Assembly (NCBI GenBank): GCA_023515795.1
Contig: JALGPX010000082.1
Coordinates: forward strand, 1 to 49,686
DNA from: Amoeboaphelidium occidentale
Taxonomy: Eukaryota > Aphelidiomycota > Aphelidea
DNA: 49,686 bases
Direction of reading: 5' to 3'
Below the pieces are notes generated by a model, which was given only the letters and a program-made list of their open reading frames with translations, was not told where the DNA came from and ran no database searches. Below are positions 4,273 through 27,314 of this stretch, in pieces (position 1 is the first letter of the stretch; each line of letters begins with the position of its first letter). Position numbers and translations under genes: made by a program.

Positions 4273-4736
4273 GTTTCAGTCAAAACCTCGCGACGATGAA
4301 GTTCAAGTTCGGCTGGGTTGATAGCAACAGCCCTGAGTACAGTAAAATTGAATGATAAACATGCTAGGTGGTCCCTCTGAATGATGCGTAGCCATGTAGT
4401 CGCTGTGAGAACAACGAAACGACTTATCGCTTTTCTATTCACAATTTTGCATTGTTTGGAAAGTATCGCATAGCAAACTTAACACAAAACTGACTTAGAT
4501 CATCTCCAAGAATTGAACTACAAACTACCCTGCAGCTGCACTATATTTTAATAAGTATGAATGGCAAATTTTGAATTGTAGAAAGCCATATGAGAACTTT
4601 TAATCTTATCCAAACGAGCCAGTTGTCAGCAGGTATTTCTAGTGGCTGAATGTCAGTACCAAGAATCATGCGATACCATCCAGGAAAAGGTTTGTCAGAC
4701 TTGATCTGATCATATGAAACAAACACCAAAATTGAT
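4273..4736. other. Intergenic region between leucine-rich protein and debranching enzyme
   Basis: These 464 bp hold the 5' flank of the minus-strand leucine-rich gene and the 3' flank of the debranching enzyme gene. A minus-strand open frame of about 75 codons (4541-4768) overlaps the end of the debranching enzyme gene, but it lacks an ATG at its start and shows no recognisable domain, so I do not call it a gene. Confidence 0.4.
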
Positions 4737-25635: not shown

Positions 25636-27314
25636 ATGTTTCAACTGATCTTGGCAATCTGCAACTTCATTTGTGGAATAAAATGCTTAACGTCAGAAGA
25701 AACCTTACCTGGCTCGATTACATTAAGAGGGACAATCAGAGATTTCAGCTTGTTTCATCTTGACTTTGAAGCAAATGTTGATGCAAAACGAGAACAGAAA
25801 GGCTTATTAAGTGCTAATCTGACCAATTCTCCTGATGATAGACCTTCTTTTATACCTCCAAACTTGAGGACCGATGATTCTTTGACCATCTTTTTGGATG
25901 TCAACTCTGATCAGGCTAATTACACAAGATATGCGCTTTCGAATTATGGCCAGTTTTACCATAACGAATACTTTCAGAATATTCCTGGAGTAAATGTCGC
26001 TATTCCAATTAACTTGGAACTGAAACTCATTGATGCTGCGAGATCTCTGTATCAATATGATTCTGGTTTGACTGGGTTCTTTCCCATTGATGAATATGGG
26101 TATCAACGAGAAAATCTTGCATCCGACACTCCACAGAGGCAAGGTGGAAATAATTATTGGTTTACTACCGAGTTCCGTGTCCGATTTTATTACAAAGGCG
26201 GAGAACAATTCGCATTCTCCGGAGATGATGATTTGTGGGTGTTTGTCAATGGAGCACTGGTTTCATCTTGTGATTTAGGAGGTCTTCATGCTCAGAGGTA
26301 AACTTGAAAGTATTTATATTGATATTTTAAGAAATTGCACGGTTGATATGGATTCTTTAGGGTTAACGCAATTCAGCTTGAATGAAATGTCGATTTTCCA
26401 TGCTGAGAGGCATTGGCTTGGAAGCAACTTCAAATTAACGACATCAATTATACCGGAGAATATTCCACCTATTTCAACAAGCTCTGTTGTATCAACTCCT
26501 GAAAATATTCCCGTTTCATTCAACCTTAAAGGTTTTGATCCTGATGAAACAGGAACTCTATTTGCAATGATCACACGTGCACCTTCTAATGGCACATTGT
26601 CTGTTAGCCTAAATACCTGGTTTCCCGTTTCTGAACAAGTTACGTTTTATCCCGATTTATACTTCTATGGAACAAATAATCTGGACTTCATTTTGAGCGA
26701 TGGAAAGGACAACTCAACTTCATCAACAGTCTTTATAGAAGTCTCATTTGTAGATCAGCCCCCAATAACTCAAAATGAGACATTTACGATTGCCATGGGT
26801 GAATCGGTCACAATACAACTGGTTTCCTTCGATCCTGATACACCTAAAGAAAATTTGACGTTTTATCTGGCAAGTAGCCCTGATTATGGTTACTGCTCAA
26901 TTACAGAATACGGCATGTTTACGTATGACTCTGTAAATAGTGGTATCGAGGTGATATTGTGGCAAATTACTGACGACGCAGGAAATTTCGCGACGGGTAA
27001 TGTGACGATTGAAATTTCATCTCCGATAACACAAGAGGGCGGTGTGCTAAAACCTGGAGAAGTTGCTGGCATTGTTGTCGGTTCAATGAGTTTAATAGGG
27101 CTAGTTGGTGTGGCATTAGTATTTTTTCTGTATAATTGGTTCATGGCTGCAAAATTTGAAGCGACGGTAACAGTTTCATTATGATCTAACAGTTTAGTGG
27201 CAAGAAGAGTTTTACCAAACGCAAGCTACTGTCAACCCGCTATACAAGCCGAAATACCAAGAAAAATACAATCCTCTGTACAAAGACAATGTTTTCGAGA
27301 ACAACGCAGTTTAA
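25636..27314 (+). CDS. Fibro-slime/PA14-like cell-surface receptor with NPxY cytoplasmic tail
   Basis: Three exons (25636-26297, 26332-27166, 27198-27314; introns 34 and 31 nt) give 537 residues. A signal peptide starts MFQLILAICNFI. A fibro-slime (PA14-like) domain spans about residues 30-265, with FAFSGDDDLWVFVNG and DLGGLHAQRN. Two cadherin-like beta repeats follow (about 285-380 and 380-475; QPPITQNETFTI, VSFDPDTPKENLTFYL). One transmembrane helix lies near 468-490 (GIVVGSMSLIGLVGVALVFF). The tail has two NPLY motifs (512-515 and 524-527) after a membrane-proximal Trp (W500). NPxY motifs in integrin-beta tails bind talin/PTB domains, so a talin-linked adhesion role is inferred. The ATG at 25636 is chosen because it opens the signal peptide. 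I do not know a named orthologue. Confidence 0.82.

Follow-up and report, generated by a model that had tools for sequence, protein, structure and literature searches.

The focal-adhesion scaffold of basal fungi has been described with its membrane partner missing, and a "yet-unidentified integrin functional homologue" was left open (PMC5042518, partial text). A gene of Amoeboaphelidium occidentale raises the question of what such a partner might look like. The window, as the whole analyzed stretch of 49,686 nucleotides is called here, carries at positions 25636-27314 of the plus strand a three-exon gene for a 537-amino-acid membrane protein, which an earlier note had read as a possible adhesion or phagocytosis receptor with an integrin-beta-like tail. 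The genome is eukaryotic and comprises 11.3 Mb in 204 contigs, and the GC content of the window is 38-44%. This analysis considers the gene model, the relatives of the protein, its candidate partners in the same genome, and its likeness to known receptors.

The protein is read from the first ATG (25636) downstream of an in-frame stop. Its parts follow in the order signal peptide, fibro-slime/PA14-type domain, two cadherin-like repeats, one transmembrane (TM) helix, and a 50-residue cytoplasmic tail; the coordinates are collected in the table. The earlier gene model included the 31-nt intron 2 and overlooked intron 1.

Table. Features of the receptor gene in the window and what each assignment is based on
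Feature	Position	Strand	Content or basis
Exon 1	25636..26297	+	Signal peptide and beginning of the fibro-slime/PA14-type domain; gene model
Signal peptide	about 25636-25686	+	By eye
Fibro_Slime TIGR02148, residues 172-260, split by intron 1	26149..26449	+	Profile match; Cys212 and Cys223 family-invariant
Intron 1, 34 nt	26298..26331	+	P0112 continuous through the junction; halves of the Fibro_Slime match flank the intron
Exon 2	26332..27166	+	Remainder of fibro-slime domain, two cadherin-like repeats, TM helix, tail residues 1-12 (YNWFMAAKFEAT)
Cadherin-like repeat 1, residues 264-352	26459..26725	+	Big_9 and Cadherin_4; fold of homologue P0003
Cadherin-like repeat 2, residues 353-448 (Big_9 363-447)	26726..27013	+	Pfam; fold of homologue P0003
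Single TM helix, residues 464-487, with GxxxG	27059..27130	+	By eye
Intron 2, 31 nt, phase 0	27167..27197	+	P0001 and P0004 enter the intron at the same codon; calmodulin and AROM introns as controls
Exon 3	27198..27314	+	Invariant Trp (27198-27200), aromatic residue at N-8 of the first motif, two NPLY motifs separated by eight residues, stop

The tail signature depends on intron 2. Without its removal the protein ends in ...AAKFEATVTVSL followed by a stop; exon 3 contains the Trp as well as the two NPLY motifs. The claim that the splice reveals the second NPLY holds as far as the splice is concerned; the Trp and the first NPLY depend on it as well. Intron 2 has the form GTAACA...TCTAAC...TTTAG, which occurs 10 times in the window against a shuffle mean of 4.65 and maximum of 10, an enrichment of about twofold that is weak for the class. 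Because the form is only mildly enriched as a class, the argument for the splice is carried by individual genes. The window has other candidate introns with this form, and five of them were checked for a reading frame across the junction. Removal of a 34-nt candidate in the calmodulin gene (48027-47994, minus strand) gives ...NYEEFVKM/MMSK-stop (the slash marks the junction), which we take to be the C-terminal ending expected of calmodulin. A 32-nt candidate in the pentafunctional AROM gene (32714-32683, minus strand) joins in frame, removal of the candidates at 1467 and 1294 keeps one frame open through each junction, and for the candidate at 4676 there is no convincing one. Relatives of the receptor bear on both junctions: P0001 and P0004 lose the frame at the same codon as intron 2 (...AARFERL/V...), and P0112 is uninterrupted over the intron-1 junction (...HGRRNCTVDMDTLGL). 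The exon-3 tail is present in five relatives, and it is on this account, most of all, that the tail is counted as real and not as a splicing guess. Both splices are thus supported, from sequence rather than cDNA. With introns of 32-34 nt, as in the AROM and calmodulin genes, gene calls unaware of introns would drop last exons like exon 3.

The domain order proposed in the earlier note is borne out by the gene model and by profile searches, with the window protein's signal peptide and TM helix assigned by eye. The fibro-slime match (TIGR02148) has an E value of 6.8e-25 and scores 87.4 bits, above the curated cut-off of 45. A Pfam scan of the window protein (E up to 1) returns only Big_9, Cadherin_3/4/5, and PA14; Big_9 (E 9e-17) and Cadherin_4 (E 4.6e-15) each match in two stretches. 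The 537 residues include just 6 cysteines, 3 of which fall in the first 17. Cys212 and Cys223 of the fibro-slime domain are invariant in nine aligned family sequences, and the pair does not appear in the consensus when 33 sequences, 23 of them non-family proteins, are aligned. The structure models are those of the homologues P0003 and P0007, built with 23 and 33 of 162 fetched proteins. The Catenaria homologue (P0007) is predicted to match PA14 lectin-type folds, a result for the homologue and not for the window protein. In the P0003 model, a single predicted helix covers the TM segment and the juxtamembrane part of the tail.

As the earlier note described, the window tail contains a membrane-proximal Trp and two NPLY motifs with an N-to-N spacing of 12, and this arrangement is kept in relatives. 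The six complete tails available (the window protein and five relatives) align with 13 invariant columns. The linker from the Trp to the first N is 11 residues in all six, and the N-to-N spacing is 12 in five and 13 in Gonapodya. Eight positions ahead of the first N stands an aromatic residue in every tail (Phe, Tyr, or Trp). NPLY is the first motif of four tails and NPLF that of two; the second motif is NPLY throughout. A stripe of KF, Trp, and an aromatic residue is seen in the juxtamembrane sequence, within the helix predicted for the homologue. Among five members (the window protein, P0002, P0003, P0005, and P0006), mean pairwise identity peaks at 57% in the fibro-slime core, and the tail comes next at 42%. 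It falls to 33% for the N-terminal part of the head, 31 and 30% over the two repeats, 28% across the TM segment, and 21% in the stalk. The tail, surpassed in identity by the core alone, is therefore under constraint. An NPLY-type pair arises in 144 of 200,000 shuffles of the window tail and in 3 to 44 of 200,000 for each of the other five, and among the 162 fetched proteins the paired motif occurs in five, all of them family members. Origin of the tail by chance or by a splicing guess was rejected on the relatives' tails, these shuffles, the count among fetched proteins, and the control introns.

A profile of the six tails was compared with 177,635 distinct PDB sequences. At E values up to 10 there are six matches: integrin beta7 (0.1), beta2 (0.18), CFAM166C (0.57), beta1 (1.5), beta1D (3.9), and beta1 (8). 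Five are integrin beta chains, including the two best. When single tails are compared with 24,736 Pfam models, Integrin_b_cyt is matched by four of six tails (best E 0.012) and is the sole family matched by more than one; the other family, NPH3, is matched by one tail. The window tail itself scores 10.9 bits against Integrin_b_cyt (PF08725), below the cut-off of 23.4. Each match is below formal significance, and the tail nevertheless points to integrin beta tails, because five of the six PDB matches and four of the six tails fall on one family. The integrin-beta layout ascribed to the tail earlier holds for the Trp and the two motifs 12 apart; it does not hold for the distance from the Trp to the first motif, 11 residues as opposed to 3-4 in talin-binding integrins.

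Two whole-protein searches of 5.8 billion proteins, with about 8,000 candidates scored in each (7994 and 7996), found at least 10 close relatives (P0001-P0009 and P0112) among more numerous bacterial fibro-slime and tandem-repeat proteins. The named relatives belong to Coelomomyces lativittatus and Catenaria anguillulae (Blastocladiomycota) and to two Gonapodya (Monoblepharomycota). A complete tail, of nearly fixed geometry, is present in five of the 10, including Coelomomyces, Catenaria, and Gonapodya. The remaining relatives were left out of the tail alignment: in P0001 and P0004 the reading continues into intron 2, P0112 breaks off within the fibro-slime domain, P0008 ends short of any TM helix, and P0009 has unrelated sequence at its end. 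Those retained have flaws of their own (e.g., the P0002 model is without a signal peptide, and the Catenaria model, P0007, is without most of the repeats). P0006, from a Gonapodya sp., is longer and has additional repeat sequence. The model of P0008 (Gonapodya prolifera) ends before the TM segment and P0006, from another Gonapodya, has the full tail; the P0008 annotation may have lost its last exons. A database search with the tail plus TM segment returned P0001 alone from 140 candidates and missed the five known tails, and is no measure of how widely the tail is spread.

Within the A. occidentale genome, one fibro-slime gene and one such tail were found. A fourth, weak whole-protein match in the genome (C193, E 0.0045) lies in another frame and has 28% identity over residues 320-407, in the repeat region. 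The fungal affinity of the genome is indicated by the named homologues, which are fungal, and by alpha-aminoadipate reductase, which is found as two pieces of 947 and 500 bits, each below the whole-protein cut-off of 1030; weaker matches to this enzyme occur in 12 of 14 control genomes. Bacterial contamination was ruled out by the introns, the eukaryotic neighbor genes, and the fungal relatives. A metagenomic protein of 946 amino acids (P0158) has a fibro-slime domain and, by eye, a TM segment in a eukaryotic-receptor-like arrangement, and its tail of about 100 residues is without an NPxY pair; it is possibly a second kind of fibro-slime receptor.

The absence of any talin or PTB protein had been named beforehand as grounds for abandoning the receptor interpretation. 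The same genome encodes a complete talin in one frame of 2584 codons, with F0, F1-type, F2, F3 (PTB/IRS), middle, rod, IBS2B, and I/LWEQ regions. Against the PDB, its head matches talin-1 chains with an E value of 5.8e-134, and seven of the best nine rows are integrin-beta/talin-1 chains. The F3 stretch is identical to talin-1 at 74 of 109 residues, including RWAA, and is the strongest IRS/PTB match found in the genome (108 bits, the next being 44). The co-occurrence of receptor and talin is established for one genome, that of A. occidentale. Integrin_beta, vinculin, and PID were looked for in the genome without a match, in runs that had no working positive control.

A paxillin-like protein is also encoded, on the minus strand and in at least two frames (L038, C88:24800-27500). 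Its LIM part scores 126.7 bits against paxillin (alpha), compared with 66 for leupaxin and 64 for PINCH; the first LIM stretch is marginally nearer PINCH (43.6 versus 38.9 bits). The same protein has what we take to be LD-like motifs. At two further places (L036, C202:48000-52500, and L039, C132:6500-10000), frames seem to join presumed RasGAP-type sequence to several C-terminal LIM domains, a combination that looked unusual; L036 has presumably C2-like and C1-like stretches upstream. At L014 (C1:500-8500, minus strand), frames that we take to be calponin-homology/RhoGEF-like lie beside a FERM-bearing frame, and they are perhaps one large protein split by introns. The FERM place L016 contains stretches of N.

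Taken together, we consider it fairly probable that zoosporic fungi use the protein as a single-chain adhesion receptor that binds carbohydrate and couples to talin, which would make it a functional analogue of integrin beta and SibA. The PA14/fibro-slime head would, to judge from its fold, bind carbohydrate on a host, a substrate, or a cell coat, and the two cadherin-like repeats would serve as a short stalk. The TM helix would continue as a membrane-proximal amphipathic helix bearing the KF-W-aromatic stripe. The first NPL[YF] is predicted to dock into the F3 (PTB) domain of talin, whose rod and I/LWEQ regions would tie the receptor to actin, so that a wall-less stage could gain traction or attach firmly; the second NPLY may be a further PTB-type site. 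There is precedent for the talin step. The integrin beta tails of Capsaspora recruit human talin through NPXY/F (PMC6450878, partial text), and force coupling of SibA to talin places talin on a non-integrin tail (PMC12686525, in part). The main structural difference from talin-binding integrins is the 11-residue Trp-to-NPLY linker: in those integrins the linker is 3-4 residues, and changes in it alter talin binding (PMC12637224, partial text). With a linker of 11 residues, either the aromatic residue at N-8 or the helical segment would replace the Trp contact, or affinity would be low and clustering needed.

The stage that might use the receptor in zoosporic fungi is the wall-less zoospore, either crawling or attaching. 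Chytrid zoospores, which belong to fungi other than A. occidentale, crawl by means of actin (PMC7213984, in part). In the gut fungus Orpinomyces, scaffold genes are not up-regulated on cellulose, and scaffold transcripts are lower in flagellated than in germinating spores, which counts against a role in the zoospore; the authors of that work lean to non-adhesion roles for the scaffold (all from the available portion of PMC5042518). On balance, the earlier interpretation as an adhesion or phagocytosis receptor is supported.

NPxY is a recognized endocytic sorting signal, and the protein might accordingly be an endocytic or phagocytic cargo receptor: clathrin adaptors would read the NPLY motifs, and glycans or prey particles caught by the PA14 head would be taken up instead of giving traction. 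Motif and fold by themselves do not separate adhesion from uptake, and a clathrin adaptin does engage the NPXY of integrin beta5 (PMC6450878, in part). We nonetheless regard this alternative as unlikely, for a plain endocytic NPxY should have no need of an invariant Phe and Trp, an 11-residue linker, and a near-fixed spacing of 12. The profile matches of the tail are, moreover, integrin beta tails, and the PID search described above, which had no working control, gave no match in the genome.

A different ligand is also conceivable, in that the NPLY tail may be carried or anchored in filopodia by myosins of the MyTH4-FERM type and not by talin. Three further IRS places above the cut-off each lie beside a FERM_M place (C82, C112, and C60), and sequence that we take to be myosin-motor-like is present in the C60 frame and in the frame neighboring C112. 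The PTB/IRS scores of these three places (28.9-43.9 bits) are far under that of talin, the F3 of which is close to talin-1, and a myosin in place of talin is quite improbable; the talin and myosin readings are, however, compatible. We hold it to be very unlikely that the protein is a wall or surface stress sensor like yeast Wsc/Mid2, with the cadherin-like stalk as a spring and signaling through the tail: the tail is an integrin-type double NPLY one, unlike Wsc/Mid2-type tails, the stalk is without clear Ser/Thr richness by eye, and talin is present in the genome. Such a sensor would fit the description of yeast mechanosensors as functional integrin analogues (PMC6685044, partial text) and the building of walls after encystment in zoosporic fungi (PMC7213984, partial text). 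That a wrongly guessed intron created the tail, the real protein having no motifs, is scarcely credible despite the weak enrichment of the intron class, given the exon-3 tails of the five relatives, three of which are NCBI-named fungal proteins, and the 32-34-nt introns that calmodulin and AROM require.

With a talin-coupled adhesion receptor as the preferred reading, the family gives the unidentified functional homologue of integrins in basal fungi a concrete candidate, and its predicted binding is testable. It may be an adhesion receptor of the kind that zoosporic (swimming-spore) fungi were thought to lack. More tentatively, and with slightly less than an even chance in our judgment, the family would be the membrane anchor that the fungal focal-adhesion scaffold has been missing: a glycan-binding "integrin" of one chain that was retained or assembled in early fungi and has a talin-docking geometry of its own (the long Trp-NPLY linker and the KF-W-aromatic stripe). 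If this were true, the loss of integrins in fungi would not have ended the clutch between talin and receptor, which would have been built anew on a PA14 lectin head. By titles and abstract openings among the literature matches listed, a scope mostly outside subscription papers, no description of this receptor family was found.

Known receptor families share parts of this architecture in different combinations. Bacterial fibro-slime proteins (Polyangia, Myxococcales) share the fibro-slime domain; the Cys pair is not in the consensus that they dominate, and in contrast to the receptor family none of the non-family proteins fetched has an NPLY pair. The PA14 adhesins of yeast (Flo/Epa) are GPI- and wall-anchored and, unlike the window protein, are not known to have a cytoplasmic tail. 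A classical-cadherin catenin-binding tail is likewise not indicated, with no cadherin cytoplasmic family in the Pfam scan and a tail of the NPLY type.

Integrin beta chains of animals and Capsaspora resemble the window protein in having a Trp and a pair of NPxY-type motifs (the spacing of 12 is seen when beta7 and beta1 are aligned), in the juxtamembrane KF of their tails, and in being the best database matches of the family tail. They differ in their shorter linker and their ectodomain: neither a beta-I/VWA domain (PF00362) nor EGF or PSI modules were found in the window protein in the Pfam scan (E up to 1). Without a beta-I domain or Cys-rich modules, and with its Pfam tail score below the cut-off, the protein was rejected as an integrin beta by domain content.

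Receptors of amoebae are organized in a parallel way. The mannose-binding protein of Acanthamoeba and the adhesion lectin of Entamoeba are lectin receptors whose tails are integrin-like or contain NPXY, and they occur in amoebae that have talin and no integrins; there too talin binding is a proposal (PMC12686525, partial text); they are compared here by description, and they belong to amoebae as opposed to fungi. SibA and SibC of Dictyostelium, also compared by description, are non-integrin receptors with two NPxY motifs and a GxxxG TM segment in a cell that has talin (PMC9453864 and PMC12686525, both in part). The features recur here, with GxxxG in six of seven TM segments of the family and the paired motif in all six complete tails. 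The Sib ectodomain combines a VWA domain with a Cys-rich region and repeats of bacterial type (PMC9453864, partial text), as opposed to a fibro-slime/PA14 domain and two cadherin-like repeats in a family with fungal relatives, and Sib membership was rejected by domain content on the lack of a VWA match. The protein is best regarded as an integrin-independent, probably talin-linked receptor whose distinguishing traits are the PA14/fibro-slime head and its occurrence in fungi.
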